Source: Pleurocapsa sp. PCC 7319 (GTDB lineage Bacteria > Cyanobacteriota > Cyanobacteriia > Cyanobacteriales > Xenococcaceae). Taken from it: a stretch of DNA of 64,000 nucleotides. This document shows positions 6,950 through 64,000 of the stretch, in pieces. The position numbers and the translations under genes were made by a program. The stretch is from contig NZ_KB235922.1 in the NCBI RefSeq assembly GCF_000332195.1, positions 186,001 to 250,000 on the forward strand. The letters run 5' to 3'. Within the stretch, counting starts at the first letter, position 1; every line of letters starts with the position of its first letter. The notes below the pieces were generated by a model. The model saw only the letters and a program-made list of their open reading frames with translations. It ran no database searches and was not told where the DNA came from.

Positions 6950-9900
6950 TTATAGGCAGATTTTTTGTTCACTCTGTTTCACACTAGGATTATTTGTCAG
7001 ATAGTCAGACAAGCGATCGCATCCTTGAGTTAAGAGATTATCTAAGTCCAGGTTCCAGGAAAATAGACCTTGTTGTTCTTCAGCACTAATTATTGACTGA
7101 TCGTCGCTACTAAATGCCAGACTATTAATTTGGCTAGTATGTCCTCGAAGATTTTTGATTAGTCTTCCTGTTTCGGTATTCCAAAGTTTAATCTGGCGAT
7201 CGCCACTTCCGGTCGCTAACAGAGTACCATCAGAATTAAAGCTAATCGTAGTTACACCATCCTGATGTCCTGTAAGAGTTTGTAATAGCTGGTTGGTTTT
7301 TCCTTGTATCCTCCAGATTTTAACGGTATTATCCCAACTAGCTGAAGCCAAGATTTCGCCGTCAGGAGAGAATTCTAAGGAGGTAATAGCTAGATCGTGG
7401 GCATCAATAGTTTGTAAAAATTCTCCGGCGATCGTCCAGAGTTTAATCATGTTGTCGTATCCAGCGGAAGCAATGAAATTGCCATCGGGACTAACAGTAA
7501 CAGTTTTGATACTATCTTTGTGTCCTTTTAGGGTTTTAATTAGTTTTGGTTCACCCTCTAAATTCCACAGTTTAAGAGTTTTATCTTCGCTACCAGAGAT
7601 TAAAATTTTACTATCGGGACTAAAGACAATACTATTGATTCCATCCTGATGACCTTTCAGCTTATCTACTAAATCACCATTTTCCGCATTCCAAAGCTTA
7701 ATAGTTTTATCCCAACTTGCCGAGACAATAAATTTACCATCAGGACTATATTTGATTTGTGAAATAGCTTCATCATGTCCTGATATAGAGTGAAAAAGTT
7801 TGTGGGCGTCACCAGAATGATTACGCCAAATTTTAATCTTGCCATCCCAATCGGCTGTAGCAAATGTACCAGAGGAGATGGGTGAAACTGCAACACTATA
7901 AATTCCCTCTGCTTTTTCTAAATAGCGATTAAAAACTTGCCAGATTCTGACAGTTTTATCGACACCAGTAGAAATTAGTTTATATCTTTGGCTGTCTTGA
8001 TTCGGAATAAACTCAACGTCCGATACTTCTCCTGTATGTCCGCTTAAAGTTTGCTGCAAAATACCATCCTTACTCCAGATGTTAACGTTGCCATCAATAG
8101 TCGCAGTGGCTAATAATTCTCCATCAGGACTAATACTGACGCTGTTAACTGGTTCTGAATGAGAGTAAGAACTAATTATTTGATTATCTGATTTTGACCG
8201 TAGTTGCACTAGACCATCATTATTAGTAGAAACCAGGTAGGCACTATGTTTGGGAGTAAGCTTGTTTTTGGCTGAATAAATAGGATTGATAATTTGACTC
8301 GGATTACCATCTAAGGTTAAAGCAATCGGATTTGCTTGTGCTTGTTCCGCAGTTAAAGTATCGAGTAAAGTACCATCATGTTGCCAAACTTTTATAGTTT
8401 GATCGTCACTAGCAGTAGCGATTAATTGCCCATCATTGCTAATGCTGACAGCATTAACTTTTTGACTATGACCTTCAAGACGATTTAATTCCTGAGTGCC
8501 ATAAATCGACTGTTGCAGAGTAGCAGTAGTTTGAGCTTGGGTATCTTGCCAATTATCTTGACCGACTAAAAATTCACCTAAACTATTGATTTTGCCTAAT
8601 TCTTTTGCTGCTTTAACACTAGTAGCCAAAGATTCTAACTGTTGATTCGACAATAATTGCGCTTCAGCAATAGCATTTAAACTGTCGATATTTTCAAGTT
8701 GAGTAATTAGTTTTTGGCGATATGCAGTGACACCAAAAGCAGTAGCCGCTAAACCCAATACACCAAGGGTAGCAGCAGTAATTTGTGCTTTACGTAAGCG
8801 TCTTTTTGCTTCTCGTTGTTCAGCAAGCCTGGCATCAATACAACTAGCGACATATTCTTTGGCAGTATCGGACAACTCGTCGGTGTATTTAACAAATATT
8901 TCTTCTGCTTCTGCTAAACGTACACCTCGCAAGAGAAAATCATCCTGTTTATTTTTTTGCAACCATAAAACTGCTGCTTGTTCGATCTGACGTTGCGATC
9001 GCAACCTACTTCTATTTTCTTCTAACCACCAACGCAAACTTGACCAGTGACGAATCAGGATTTCGTGGACAACTTCTACTGTTGCTTCCTGGCGCATCGC
9101 CTCCATAAATAGTTCATCGTCAGCCGGCGGAGAGTCGGCACTGCGACTCTGTCCAATATTTGTGCCGTTATCTAGGTTAACTACTAATAATTTGGCATCT
9201 GTGAGTACCCGTAAGGTTTTATCGATCAAAGCCTCGGGATATTTAGCTACGACTAAATTAGATTTAGTAATCCGACGACGGGTATCTTCTGTCCCTTCTC
9301 CTAACTGAGTCAGGTTGAGGAAAATCCATCTCGCACAATCTTGCGATTCACTATCGAGATTATCGTATACTGCCTGGGCTTGCCTTTCTAATGCACCCTT
9401 GATACCCCCTAATTCTTGATAGGCTTTAAGGGTTAAATTTCCATTTTGGCGACGTTCCCACAGTTGTTGCAAAGCAAACTGTAATAGCGGTAGATCCCCT
9501 GCGGAACGGTCTAAGTCCTGTAATAATACTTCGACTAAACCAGATTCAACTTTTAAACCTACTTGTTCAGCAGGTTTGACGATCGCACTGCGGTAATCTT
9601 CTTCTGTCAGATACGGGGGGACTAAAACGCTGTCTTTTTGCAATATCTGTGCTAACTCAGGTATTTCTAAACAAGAAGCCACAAAATCTGCTCTAATAGT
9701 TAAGACTAATTTAAAGCGATCGCCCGCGTATTTAATTGCTCCCAGTATTAAATCAATAAATTCTTGACGTTCACTATCTCCCGCCAGGGTAAACAACTCC
9801 TCAAACTGATCGATTACTAGCAATACCATTGGTTCCGTCCGAGTTCGTAACCAACGCACAAATCCCTCTACACCCTGATAAAGTAAGCCCTCAATTTGAA

Positions 9901-11785
9901 GTTTTTGTTGTGCTTGAGATTCTTTGCTACCAGAGTCGGTTAATAATTTAGCTAATGCTTGTACAGGCTTATTCCCAGGACGAAAACAACCCAGCCACCA
10001 GCGATCGCTTCCTGGTAGTTGTTTACCCTGTCTCAGTTGTGCCATCACCCCCGCCTGAACTGCTGAGGATTTACCACTACCAGAAGCCCCAACTACCGCC
10101 AAACTAGGCTGATGATTAAGACGATTTAATAACTTTTGGACTAAAGCTTCTCTGCCATAAAAATATTCAGCACTGTCTTCGTTGAATGCCTGTAATCCCA
10201 TATAGGGACAGATGCCTAAATCCAAAACGGGCTGATGATTTGCTACGCCATTTTTGTAGGGCAACACCTCGATTACTCCCTGAGTCCCTGAGAGCCAAAC
10301 TTGAGGCACAATTTCTGTTCCTGCTAAGGCAATCTGTAACTGAGTAATCCAGGCAGCGACGGGAAATCCGGCATGAGAATCGGCAGTTTGCAGAGTTTCC
10401 CATAAGGCACTGGTAAACTGCTGTGAAGACTCTTGAGGGGCATTGGCAGCAATTAAACACTGTCCTCGTTCCGCTTCTAGTTGCAATTCTTCTACCCATT
10501 CCATTAGAGAATGTTCCCCAGGACAGTCTAAGATCACGATCTGCTGGACAGCTCGGGAATTTTTGAGGATTGTTCTTAACCAAGAACGAGATATGCGAAT
10601 ACCATCCCTTAAAACCAACCAGGATTCTCCCAAATCTGTGGTTTCAATTTGTCCTCGTAGATAAAGTAAAGCCGTGGTGATTTCTGGAGTAGTTTTAGTC
10701 GTCACCTGGGAATTTAAGCACTTGGCGATCGCATCTTTTACTTTTGTCCAGGGTTCATTGGTTTGGGGAAAATATCTGAGATTAAATTGCCCTTCACTCT
10801 TTAAGATTTGACTTAAAGCTAGAGTACGATTGGTTTTCAATCCACCATCAATTACTAATGCCTGACGAGGATTAACTTCTAAATTACAAAGCGATCGCTT
10901 ACCCAGGATAACCTTACCAAAGCCTTCCACAATACGTTTGGGAGTCTGCAAGGGAAATTCTGATTGTAGTCGTCTTTCTCCCCGACTACTTTTTTGCTGG
11001 TTAATTAATCGGATCTGTTGATTAGTTTTATCTATATACCGTAAGGTTTGATGATAGACATACTGATATAAAGCGTCAGCTTCAATTACACCTTGGGGAT
11101 CGGCAGCTTCACCTCGTAAACCCCGCATCAAATAATAAGTAAATACTCCATGTCCTAATTCGGGAAACTCCCAGGATTGTTGAGTTTGATCGCAGGACAA
11201 TAAAGCATAAAACCCTTTACTTTCCGCTGCCTTATGCCGCAAAACCTCAACTAACTGGGAACTAGGATCGACTAAACTTCGACTCTCTGTCCCCCTCAAA
11301 GTCATCCCACCACTATGACATGCATCTAACCAGACCAATTGCTGACTGGCTGCACAGTTACTTAACTGTTTTAATAGGGTGTTTAACGGTAAACCTGTAG
11401 TTAATAGTTTTTTAGTATTAGTATCACTCAAGCATAAAATTACTTGTTGAGTCTTGGGATCTAAAATACCGTGTCCCGAAAAATAAAACAGAATTGTATC
11501 ATTAGAACTAGCTGAATTAACTATGTGTGCAATACTACGCTGAACATCTGTTATGTAGGGATGTTGACTTACAAAATCATGGTGAATAATAACTTCCTTG
11601 GCAGTCAAGCTAGCTGTAGCTTCCTTAAGTGCTTCCCCTAAACCCTGACAATCCAAAGCCGAATATTGAAGAGAAGGTAAATTTTCTTGGTCTTGGTATT
11701 GATTCACACCCACCAAGAGAATCCAAAGTTTGGCAGTTGATGATTTAGAAGTTACTTTAGAACTGGGTTTAGCGCGAGGACACAT
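6950..11785 (-). CDS. Caspase-like / STAND NTPase / WD40-repeat protein
   Basis: A 1611-residue signalling protein. The N-terminal peptidase C14-like domain has its catalytic pair in FYFSGHG (His105) and DACHSGG (Cys156). Next comes an effector-like linker domain, then a STAND-type NTPase with Walker A GASGSGKSS (about 563-571) and Walker B LLVIDQFEEL (about 655-664). A hydrophobic helix follows at about 1000-1020 (AATLGVLGLAATAFGVTAY), and then about eleven WD40 blades from about 1098 to 1595, mostly ending in WDKTIKLW-type motifs; blade 2 is degenerate. By family logic the propeller senses a ligand, the NTPase oligomerises and the protease executes, as in regulated cell death or anti-phage defence. 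Neither role is shown here. It stands alone, convergent with the MocR gene. Confidence 0.93.
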   Translation of the reverse strand: MCPRAKPSSKVTSKSSTAKLWILLVGVNQYQDQENLPSLQYSALDCQGLGEALKEATASLTAKEVIIHHDFVSQHPYITDVQRSIAHIVNSASSNDTILFYFSGHGILDPKTQQVILCLSDTNTKKLLTTGLPLNTLLKQLSNCAASQQLVWLDACHSGGMTLRGTESRSLVDPSSQLVEVLRHKAAESKGFYALLSCDQTQQSWEFPELGHGVFTYYLMRGLRGEAADPQGVIEADALYQYVYHQTLRYIDKTNQQIRLINQQKSSRGERRLQSEFPLQTPKRIVEGFGKVILGKRSLCNLEVNPRQALVIDGGLKTNRTLALSQILKSEGQFNLRYFPQTNEPWTKVKDAIAKCLNSQVTTKTTPEITTALLYLRGQIETTDLGESWLVLRDGIRISRSWLRTILKNSRAVQQIVILDCPGEHSLMEWVEELQLEAERGQCLIAANAPQESSQQFTSALWETLQTADSHAGFPVAAWITQLQIALAGTEIVPQVWLSGTQGVIEVLPYKNGVANHQPVLDLGICPYMGLQAFNEDSAEYFYGREALVQKLLNRLNHQPSLAVVGASGSGKSSAVQAGVMAQLRQGKQLPGSDRWWLGCFRPGNKPVQALAKLLTDSGSKESQAQQKLQIEGLLYQGVEGFVRWLRTRTEPMVLLVIDQFEELFTLAGDSERQEFIDLILGAIKYAGDRFKLVLTIRADFVASCLEIPELAQILQKDSVLVPPYLTEEDYRSAIVKPAEQVGLKVESGLVEVLLQDLDRSAGDLPLLQFALQQLWERRQNGNLTLKAYQELGGIKGALERQAQAVYDNLDSESQDCARWIFLNLTQLGEGTEDTRRRITKSNLVVAKYPEALIDKTLRVLTDAKLLVVNLDNGTNIGQSRSADSPPADDELFMEAMRQEATVEVVHEILIRHWSSLRWWLEENRSRLRSQRQIEQAAVLWLQKNKQDDFLLRGVRLAEAEEIFVKYTDELSDTAKEYVASCIDARLAEQREAKRRLRKAQITAATLGVLGLAATAFGVTAYRQKLITQLENIDSLNAIAEAQLLSNQQLESLATSVKAAKELGKINSLGEFLVGQDNWQDTQAQTTATLQQSIYGTQELNRLEGHSQKVNAVSISNDGQLIATASDDQTIKVWQHDGTLLDTLTAEQAQANPIALTLDGNPSQIINPIYSAKNKLTPKHSAYLVSTNNDGLVQLRSKSDNQIISSYSHSEPVNSVSISPDGELLATATIDGNVNIWSKDGILQQTLSGHTGEVSDVEFIPNQDSQRYKLISTGVDKTVRIWQVFNRYLEKAEGIYSVAVSPISSGTFATADWDGKIKIWRNHSGDAHKLFHSISGHDEAISQIKYSPDGKFIVSASWDKTIKLWNAENGDLVDKLKGHQDGINSIVFSPDSKILISGSEDKTLKLWNLEGEPKLIKTLKGHKDSIKTVTVSPDGNFIASAGYDNMIKLWTIAGEFLQTIDAHDLAITSLEFSPDGEILASASWDNTVKIWRIQGKTNQLLQTLTGHQDGVTTISFNSDGTLLATGSGDRQIKLWNTETGRLIKNLRGHTSQINSLAFSSDDQSIISAEEQQGLFSWNLDLDNLLTQGCDRLSDYLTNNPSVKQSEQKICL

Positions 11786-48322: not shown

Positions 48323-49036
48323 CTAAGTGATATAATCGACTGCAATATCGAAATAATTAGCAATTTCTAAACTTAAGTAAAGATAATTGCATTTACTCTT
48401 AGATTCTAAAAAGTTTAAAGTTCTATGATGCACAAAACTCAACACAGAATCTTTCATCAGATTAATAATACGGACTTTTTGGCAGACAGGTACATTTAAT
48501 GCTACATAAGTTTCTTTTAAACCTTTGAAGTTTTGATTTTTAAGGAGATCAGTATTTTGTAATAAGATTGCATAGCAAATGTTTAGTAGAATAATTTCAG
48601 CATCACGCAAACAGTCAAACTTAGTCGACCGAAAACTGATCTCATTATTATGTACTAAGGATTTATAACCAAAATTTGAACTAACACCTAACACATCATT
48701 GATAATTGATTTGGTTTTGGTGATGATGAAATTTACTACATCTAGACGTATCTTATCTTCCTCAATAAATGATTCCAGCAAAGATGATGGTTTGCTCGTA
48801 ACTTGAGTATTGTGGTCAGCATGATATTGCAAAATACTAATATTTTCATTATGCTTTTTGTTAATTTTTTCATAGAATATTTTTTTATTTATTTTAACTA
48901 AATATTTGGCATCAAAATTGGGCATTTCTTGTCGACAACTAGAGCAAAACCAAGTAATTTCTTTATGATGTATATGACGAAGTAATATACTAGAACAAAT
49001 TGGGCATATATCTTTCATTTTCAAATTAATGCTCAA
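48323..49036 (-). CDS. Zinc-ribbon protein with a beta-phycobiliprotein-like domain
   Basis: A 237-residue protein. The N-terminus is a zinc ribbon (CPIC at 11-14, CSSC at 31-34). Residues about 85-237 read like a phycobiliprotein globin fold of the CpcB type: DCLRDAEIILLNICYAIL (141-158) keeps the bilin cysteine (Cys142, equivalent to CpcB Cys84) and the pyrrole-binding Asp145; KGLKETYVALNVP matches the GLRETYLALGTP helix; and the tail SLEIANYFDIAVDYI matches the CpcB end. It lacks features needed for rod assembly as far as I can see. No phycobilisome genes are near. It could bind bilin as a sensor or act on phycobiliproteins. An alternative start is Met7. Confidence 0.75.
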   Translation of the reverse strand: MSINLKMKDICPICSSILLRHIHHKEITWFCSSCRQEMPNFDAKYLVKINKKIFYEKINKKHNENISILQYHADHNTQVTSKPSSLLESFIEEDKIRLDVVNFIITKTKSIINDVLGVSSNFGYKSLVHNNEISFRSTKFDCLRDAEIILLNICYAILLQNTDLLKNQNFKGLKETYVALNVPVCQKVRIINLMKDSVLSFVHHRTLNFLESKSKCNYLYLSLEIANYFDIAVDYIT

Positions 49037-57445: not shown

Positions 57446-58744
57446 ATGATTCTCAACTATCGCTATCGCATCTATCCTGATAATGAACAAGTTGAGCTAC
57501 TCGATGAGTGGCTGGAAACTTGCCGTGTCAGCTATAACTATGCTCTCAGAGAACTAAAAGATTGGATAGCCAGTCGAAAATGTTCTCTCGATAGGTGTAG
57601 TTTAGAATCAGAATATATGATGGCTGCGGATTATCCGTTCCCTAGCTACCACCAACAGCAAAACAACTTACCAAAAGCCAAGAAGAAATTTTCACGACTC
57701 CAAGCTGTACCGTCACAAGTATTGCAAACCAATATTAGACGATTGCATGATAGTTGGGATTCATTCCAAGCTAGAGGTTATGGCTTCCCACGCTTTAAGA
57801 AGTATGGACAAATGAAGTCAATGTTGTTTCCTCAGTTCAAAACCAACCCAGTGAGTGATTGGCAAATTCAACTACCTAAATTAGGAAAAGTACAAATCAA
57901 CCTACATAGACCAATCCCTGAAGGTTTTGTTATCAAGCAAGTCAGAGTACTGAAAAAGGCAATAGGTTGGTTTGCAGTGGTAGCGATAGAATCAGATATT
58001 GAGCTTCCTAGTCCCGTACCTCATGGTCACGCAATCGGTGTTGATGTCGGCTTGTTGTCCTACGTGGCAACAAGCGATGGATATATAGAGAAGCGACCCA
58101 AGTTTTTCAAGACAGCCTATCGTCGGCTGAAAGTGCTACAAAAGCGTCTGTCAAGAAAAAAGAAACGAGGGAAAAACTATGAAAAAGCTCAACTAAAAGT
58201 AGCTAAACAACATAACTACATAGCATTCAGGCGATCTGACTATCAGTTCAAACTTGCCCATAAACTGTGTGATATGGCAGATACAATCTACGTTGAAGAT
58301 TGTGACTTTCGTATTATGGCGAAAGGGATGTTAGGTAAGCATACGATAGACGCTGGTTGGGGAAAATTGCGAGACATATTAGAATATGTAGCCCAGAAAC
58401 GAGATGTCTTTGTCGGTCGGGTTGATCATCGTGGCACTAGCCAGGTTTGCCCTAATTGTCGCTCTGAAGTCAGAAAGGATCTAAGGGTTCGACTAAGTGA
58501 GTGTCATGAATGTAATTATGTTGTCAACAGGGATATTGCCTCTGGTCAGGAAATCTGTAACCGAGGTAGAGAAACGTATCGGGGGACTCCCGAAAAGCAA
58601 GAAATTGGCTCTCAAGTCGTACTGTCGGGCAACTTGGTTGTAGATAAGTGGCGCAACCTATCTTTGGATAGTAGGGGAGCAAGATCCATTAGCGATAATG
58701 GAAGCCCACACTGTAATAATTTTAGAGCGAAAGCGATAAAATAA
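57446..58744 (+). CDS. tnpB: TnpB RNA-guided nuclease, IS200/IS605 family (IS1341-like)
   Basis: A 432-residue TnpB with all catalytic RuvC acids: Asp200 (AIGVDVGLLSYV), Glu284 (IYVEDCDFR) and Asp363 (NRDIASGQE). The zinc finger is intact (Cys335, Cys338, Cys353, Cys356). The N-terminal Wedge/REC part starts MILNYRYRIYPDNEQVE. There is no TnpA nearby, so the element needs a transposase in trans. TnpB proteins use an RNA from the element's 3' end to cut DNA at the donor site, favouring element retention. The product is intact and probably active. Confidence 0.93.
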   Translation: MILNYRYRIYPDNEQVELLDEWLETCRVSYNYALRELKDWIASRKCSLDRCSLESEYMMAADYPFPSYHQQQNNLPKAKKKFSRLQAVPSQVLQTNIRRLHDSWDSFQARGYGFPRFKKYGQMKSMLFPQFKTNPVSDWQIQLPKLGKVQINLHRPIPEGFVIKQVRVLKKAIGWFAVVAIESDIELPSPVPHGHAIGVDVGLLSYVATSDGYIEKRPKFFKTAYRRLKVLQKRLSRKKKRGKNYEKAQLKVAKQHNYIAFRRSDYQFKLAHKLCDMADTIYVEDCDFRIMAKGMLGKHTIDAGWGKLRDILEYVAQKRDVFVGRVDHRGTSQVCPNCRSEVRKDLRVRLSECHECNYVVNRDIASGQEICNRGRETYRGTPEKQEIGSQVVLSGNLVVDKWRNLSLDSRGARSISDNGSPHCNNFRAKAIK

Positions 58745-63440: not shown

Positions 63441-64000
63441 TCAATCAGGAACTAGCTGGGGAAGAATGTAAATCGATTCAGGAATCTTCATCAGATTTAA
63501 AATCTGTCTTTGAAGAGAATTAAGAGAACTAATTTCAGTAGAGCCATCAGGATAAAGATACAAAGTTAGATCGCCAAAAGCAGCTAGCAATTGTTCAGCA
63601 GTGGGACGAAAAGTAGTGCGCTTGGGATTGCCTGAATAAAGTCCAGGAAGTGATTGCTTTGTCACCGCTAGTTGGCGACGAACCACAAATTCCATCAAGG
63701 TAAACAGAGTCAGGGCGATCGTTAGTAAAAACATCAGCCCTCGAATCCGTTCTTCATCTTGAAAATAGATGGGTAAAGCGGGAAGACGACCTCGTTTAAA
63801 ACGATGAAAACCTCTTTCAGGTTGCCATTGCTCCCGATAAGAGTTAACAGCTTGCTCAAGAGAAAGACGCTGTGAATTAGCATTAGTTACATACAATCTC
63901 CAACCAGCGATGGATTGTTGATGGGTGATAGCGGTCTCACAACGTTGATAAGTCAAGGAAAGAGTAGTTTGACGAACACGACGAGAGGGACGATTCTTAC
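63441..64000 (-). CDS. IS1634/IS4-type DDE transposase, 5' partial at window end
   Basis: The frame is open to the last base of the window with no stop, so the N-terminus lies to the right. The visible C-terminal part has the IS4-type Glu-Lys motif YREQWQPERGFHRFK with E-(6)-K spacing, and the family tail LLTIALTLFTLMEFVVRRQL and GLYSGNPKRTTFRPTAEQLL. The terminal inverted repeat beyond 63441 could not be identified. It is not flanked by the MITE repeat found at 51881. Confidence 0.88.
   Translation of the reverse strand, partial: KNRPSRRVRQTTLSLTYQRCETAITHQQSIAGWRLYVTNANSQRLSLEQAVNSYREQWQPERGFHRFKRGRLPALPIYFQDEERIRGLMFLLTIALTLFTLMEFVVRRQLAVTKQSLPGLYSGNPKRTTFRPTAEQLLAAFGDLTLYLYPDGSTEISSLNSLQRQILNLMKIPESIYILPQLVPD

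Follow-up and report, generated by a model that had tools for sequence, protein, structure and literature searches.

A zinc ribbon fused to a phycoerythrin beta-like domain in Pleurocapsa and its relatives: a candidate regulator built on a retired antenna subunit

We examined a gene in a 64,000-nucleotide stretch of Pleurocapsa sp. PCC 7319 (the window; G000:C7:186001-250000, from a genome of 7.39 Mb). The gene (48323..49018, minus strand, 231 residues) encodes a zinc ribbon fused to a phycobiliprotein domain, and six such fusions were found, in the window genome (G000) and in G001, G005, G008, G010 and G023. Our preferred explanation, which we hold with a probability of about one half, is that a copy of cpeB, the gene for phycoerythrin beta, was fused behind a stand-alone ribbon gene, left the antenna and became part of a regulator. 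The grounds for a regulatory protein derived from a retired CpeB are two constrained domains joined by a much freer linker, a bilin pocket that is partly altered, rapid divergence, a location apart from cpeA and the presence of the same ribbon on GAF and GGDEF proteins. The fusion itself, its fold, its affinity to CpeB, the constraint on both domains, the sharing of the ribbon with signalling proteins and the lack of an adjoining antenna gene of the kinds searched are observations; zinc binding, the regulatory role, the partner and the ligand are inferred.

Architecture of the fusion and constraint on its parts

The protein begins with a ribbon of residues 1-36 (48911..49018, minus strand; CPIC-x16-CSSC-x-QEMPN), which would be expected to bind zinc through two CxxC knuckles. 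The four cysteines are invariant in all six fusions and in 14 of 14 aligned ribbons, and no Pfam ribbon model scored above its own cut-off on this part. Residues 37-78 (48785..48910, minus strand) form a fast-evolving linker, and the predicted local distance difference test score (pLDDT) of the predicted structure is below 50 over residues 34-77. The linker occupies the place where the N-terminal helices of a phycobiliprotein, which pair beta with alpha subunits, would begin. Residues 79-227 (48338..48784, minus strand) matched PF00502 at 59.4 bits, well above its cut-off of 22.2 (E value 5.3e-16), and the predicted structure has the globin-like phycobiliprotein fold. The PF00502 match, present in all six members, starts only at model position 19, and the region of the alpha-pairing helices has a pLDDT below 50. 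Taken with the invariant ribbon cysteines, this match bears out the zinc ribbon–phycobiliprotein architecture that a sequence-only reading had proposed; neither of the outcomes that this reading had named as refuting it, a fold unlike that of phycobiliproteins or no significant PF00502 match, occurred.

The six fusions were aligned with four ordinary phycobiliproteins and their residues compared in CpcB numbering. In the CLRD motif, which lies in a helix that this reading had likened to CpcB, the Cys, Arg and Asp of the window protein align with Cys82 (the bilin attachment site), Arg84 and Asp85 of CpcB; the cysteine is residue 136 (48611..48613, minus strand; 142 in the earlier numbering) and the aspartate, invariant in the six members, is residue 139 (48602..48604, minus strand). 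Its statement that the bilin cysteine is kept was right for the window protein and for half of the family: G005 and G023 also have Cys, and G001, G008 and G010 have Phe. The Arg84 position is kept in four members (Gln in G008, Tyr in G023). Arg37, Glu159, Tyr163 and Phe164 are each present in 6/6, Asn72 and Cys109 each in 1/6, and Arg77 and Arg78 in none, with Lys in G005 at the latter. An exact equivalent of Cys153, the second bilin site, is found only in G005; the window protein has Cys210 (48389..48391, minus strand) two residues before it in the alignment. Arg77, Arg78 and Asn72 surround the bilin. Asn72 is described as methylated in beta subunits (PMC2327270; here and below, statements about cited papers reflect excerpts of them). 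The core of the fold is retained and the bilin pocket partly altered. The window protein, G005 and G023 could carry a covalent bilin, but none can be required in the Cys-less clade.

Selection was estimated from Nei-Gojobori pairs, with the linker (residues 37-75) as an internal control for the two domains. The values are given as nonsynonymous over synonymous divergence (dN/dS), and the ratios are approximate because dS is partly saturated. For G000-G005, we obtained 0.21/0.76 for the ribbon, 0.70/0.67 for the linker and 0.21/0.70 for the phycobiliprotein domain. The three pairs within the Cys-less clade gave 0.14-0.18/0.91-1.01, 0.71-1.17/0.98-1.32 (ratios 0.56-0.89) and 0.32-0.41/0.87-1.57 (ratios 0.20-0.44), respectively. 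CpeB controls gave 0.06/0.59 (G000-G001) and 0.03/0.40 (G000-G008). Both domains are therefore constrained and the linker is far freer, in members with and without the cysteine.

Kinship with CpeB and distribution of the family

The C-terminal domain had been likened to CpcB. True phycobiliprotein homology was upheld, and CpcB was rejected as the closest relative on profile scores and on the tree, although the tree does not formally reject the alternatives. The best curated model was that of CpeB (NF058508, E 9.5e-23), ahead of ApcB (4e-15), CpcB (2e-14) and ApcA (4e-4); the CpeB, ApcB and CpcB scores all lie far under their equivalog cut-offs (80.9 bits against 275 for NF058508). When the long branch G023 was omitted, the tree placed the fusions and CpeB on one side of a branch with support of 98/93.9; with G023 included, the six fusions formed one group (97/93). 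The fusion shares with CpeB the fold, the CLRD motif, the GLKETY..L.VP helix and the C-terminal E-A-YF, and differs from it in that a ribbon and a linker appear to take the place of the N-terminal helices, in the loss of Arg77 and in the absence of an adjoining cpeA. The three Phe-bearing proteins formed one group in both trees (100/100), and the four ordinary phycobiliproteins in the alignment have Cys, so a single loss of the cysteine is the simplest history.

The fusion was present in 6 of the 27 genomes of the GTDB family, five of 13 within the genus and one of 14 outside it; the eight genus genomes without it are 95-100% complete. Of the five other members, three bear the name Pleurocapsa (two of these as 'uncultured'), one Waterburya agarophytonicola, whose protein is Cys-less, and one Xenococcus. 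A sample of the order gave the fusion in 6 of 388 genomes, the same six, and a sample of the phylum in 1 of 386, the window's own, with matches to the phycobiliprotein part in three more; these samples overlap, and seven candidates per genome were scored in both. The other order-sample matches at E ≤1e-26 (24 genomes) start at model position 63 or later, except for one stop-containing match in G201. Stop-containing matches with a start ahead of model position 50 were not inspected as candidate fusions (in the family scan G004:C19, G007, G019:C51, two in G020 and G022:C185; in the order sample G201:C290); one further match of this type, G008:C28, proved on reading to be an ordinary CpeB (L048). 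A scan of genome contigs found no relative with the single protein as query, and the five other members plus 13 ribbon-only loci with the alignment as query. A viral origin was rejected, since none of 34 candidate stretches from viral contigs proved to be a relative, as were plasmid relatives: four records matched the phycobiliprotein part only (two annotated as CpeB, one as 'bleomycin hydrolase' and one unannotated). Searches of open-licence PMC, judged by listings and the openings of abstracts, found no paper on the fusion or the ribbon.

The ribbon in other proteins and the surroundings of the gene

A ribbon profile built from 14 ribbons (five of the six in fusions and nine of the 13 stand-alone) matched in 27/27 family genomes, and gave at least 132 matches in at least 57 of 194 phylum genomes, with up to 39 candidates scored per genome. 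Nine of the 132 listed matches lie in frames of 200 residues or more, namely the window gene plus eight more; seven of the eight were read (all but that of G035). By Pfam, five of the seven have GAF and five GGDEF domains (four have both, and one of the four also PAS), and one has pentapeptide repeats (L136 1846-2550, minus strand). The GAF domains look cyanobacteriochrome-like by eye. The ribbon-GGDEF and ribbon-GAF-GGDEF proteins (L134 2396-3043 and 3063-5039; L135 1713-4178; L137 998-3196; L138 1278-3437) resemble the fusion in their N-terminal ribbon, matched by the same profile, and differ in having a GAF sensor and GGDEF effector where the fusion has its phycobiliprotein domain. Since the ribbon recurs in cyanobacteria and is also carried by GAF/GGDEF proteins, a regulatory role is favoured. 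The two L134 genes stand in tandem, and three of the ribbon-GGDEF-type proteins have a receiver-like C-terminus that scores under the Pfam cut-off. The window genome has six further ribbons: five that were read lie in frames of 64-81 residues, and the frame of the remaining one contains a stop. No Pfam model (five stand-alone ribbons tried) or NCBIfam model (four tried) scored above cut-off on stand-alone ribbons.

The open frame earlier noted at 48323..49036 exists, on the minus strand, with a different probable start. All six members have a methionine in the alignment column of that frame's residue 7, so the ATG at 49018 is the likely start codon; an in-frame TTG lies 5' of it at 49036, and G005 has an additional, earlier in-frame ATG. 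An inverted repeat, GGTCT...AGACC, was observed in the last ~30 bases 5' of the start codon in L052, L053 and L054, all Cys-less, and is longer in the latter two; none was seen upstream of the other three fusion genes. The repeat could hide the ribosome site in the Cys-less members.

By eye, the next gene downstream (235 bases away on the same strand) resembles an NAD(P)-binding reductase, and the divergent upstream gene an SppA-like protease; given the strand and spacing, a transcript shared with the reductase-like gene is possible. The claim that no phycobilisome or lyase genes are near holds in the window for PF00502, CpeS (PF09367) and CpeT (PF06206), none of which has another match there; the search did not extend to HEAT-type lyases (CpcE/F) or linkers. 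Elsewhere in the genome there are 11 further single phycobiliprotein frames and ApcE, as well as seven CpeS-type and three CpeT-type matches. A CpeB/CpeA-like pair lies at 6.18 Mb, away from the fusion, which has no such cpeA pairing (phycobiliprotein labels by eye). A divergent phycobiliprotein-like gene of ~190-204 residues was observed at L051 13019-14371 and at G000:C7:5559363-5559824; in L051 it stands ~6 kb from the fusion and divergent from a HEAT-repeat-like gene. This gene may be of the AplA kind. The window also contains, by eye, TnpB-like (57446-58744, plus strand) and IS4-like (63441-63956, minus strand) transposase frames, and a 1611-residue frame (6950-11785, minus strand) that resembles a caspase-fold protease with WD40 repeats.

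Explanations and significance

We propose that the fusion arose in the Pleurocapsa/Xenococcus lineage, when a cpeB copy would have joined a stand-alone ribbon gene, and that its product may then have left the antenna for a regulatory role. In this view the phycobiliprotein fold would serve for sensing or docking, its counterpart being a bilin, one of the bilin lyases, an alpha subunit or some other phycobilisome partner. Contact with the target would fall to the ribbon, as it presumably does in the GAF/GGDEF proteins. Of the sequence-only interpretation, the architecture, the phycobiliprotein homology and the distance from antenna genes are retained, and the CpcB kinship is not.

Several observations weigh against this proposal or limit it. 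Confidence in the structure model is moderate (mean pLDDT 61.5; predicted template modelling score 0.55). The approximately unbiased test rejected neither grouping of the fusions with CpcB (p 0.073) nor with ApcB/ApcF (p 0.070), so descent from CpeB is favoured, not proven. Every fusion row failed the composition test in both trees, and the two trees disagree as to which of G005 and the window protein stands closer to the Phe clade. The ribbon mostly occurs alone, with 123 of the 132 listed matches in frames under 200 residues (42-145). A conserved neighbourhood was rejected, as by eye no neighbours common to the loci of the five relatives were seen, and no partner is therefore indicated. Finally, an ordinary CpeB (L085) has Lys at Arg78 and Gly at Asn72, so the loss of these two residues alone does not prove a dead pocket.

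The strongest competing explanation, although we consider it rather improbable, is a photosensor of the AplA type, in which Cys136 would receive a bilin from a CpeS-class lyase, light or redox state would alter the domain and the ribbon would relay the signal. The window protein and G005 both retain the equivalents of Cys82, Arg84 and Asp85, and the genome encodes the CpeS- and CpeT-type matches noted above. There are also precedents. AplA of Fremyella diplosiphon, a phycobiliprotein outside the phycobilisome, is described as a photosensor with a proposed sensory role (PMC2246261), and the lone, derived and degenerate CpeB of high-light Prochlorococcus has been proposed as a photoreceptor (PMC9916406). 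However, AplA is said to be homologous to the allophycocyanin alpha subunit, whereas the fusion groups with CpeB (E 4e-4 for the ApcA model vs 1e-22 for CpeB); the Prochlorococcus host has chlorophyll a/b antennae rather than phycobilisomes; and the excerpts of neither paper mention a zinc ribbon. Phe replaces Cys in three of six members though their domain stays constrained, and Arg77 is lost in all six, which makes a sensor that carries bilin possible though unproven. The loss of the cysteine does not exclude a bilin, since ApcE2, which lacks the cysteine, and ApcD3 bind bilin non-covalently in far-red phycobilisomes, as allophycocyanin-type antenna components (PMC10810746).

Less probable still is a protein without bilin that acts as a decoy or adaptor when phycobilisomes are built or broken down; its domain would bind alpha subunits, lyases or linkers while the ribbon recruits a chaperone or protease. 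Retention of the fold with changed pocket residues, and the three Cys-less members, would fit this, but a fast-evolving linker appears to replace the alpha-pairing helices and no assembly gene was seen by eye adjoining the relatives. We rejected an antenna subunit with an extra domain as very improbable: the fold and the second-site cysteine of G005 speak for it, and the lack of an adjoining alpha partner gene, the lost Arg77 and the fast evolution against it. A functionless, decaying chimera, which the patchy distribution might suggest, is hardly credible, given that the frame is open in all six members (complete in five, truncated at a contig end in one), and a pseudogene was rejected on dN/dS, well below 1 in both domains and 0.6-1.0 in the linker.

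Phycobiliproteins are known chiefly as antenna proteins. In the excerpts, the evidence for their evolution into regulators consists of AplA and of the lone CpeB of Prochlorococcus, and the function of both is unsettled (PMC2246261, PMC9916406). The regulator that we propose, conserved in a few cyanobacteria and set apart from antenna genes, looks like a pigment protein turned regulatory. The family also reveals a zinc ribbon that is frequent in cyanobacteria, has no name among the Pfam and NCBIfam models tried and is sometimes carried by signalling proteins. We suggest, tentatively, that coupling the ribbon to a CpeB-derived, bilin-capable domain may have made a signalling sensor, which would be a second route from antenna to photoreceptor besides AplA, with one clade using a non-covalent bilin or none. 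Because the same fusion exists with and without the bilin cysteine, and is constrained in both forms, the family is a natural experiment that allows a direct test of whether bilin is needed.
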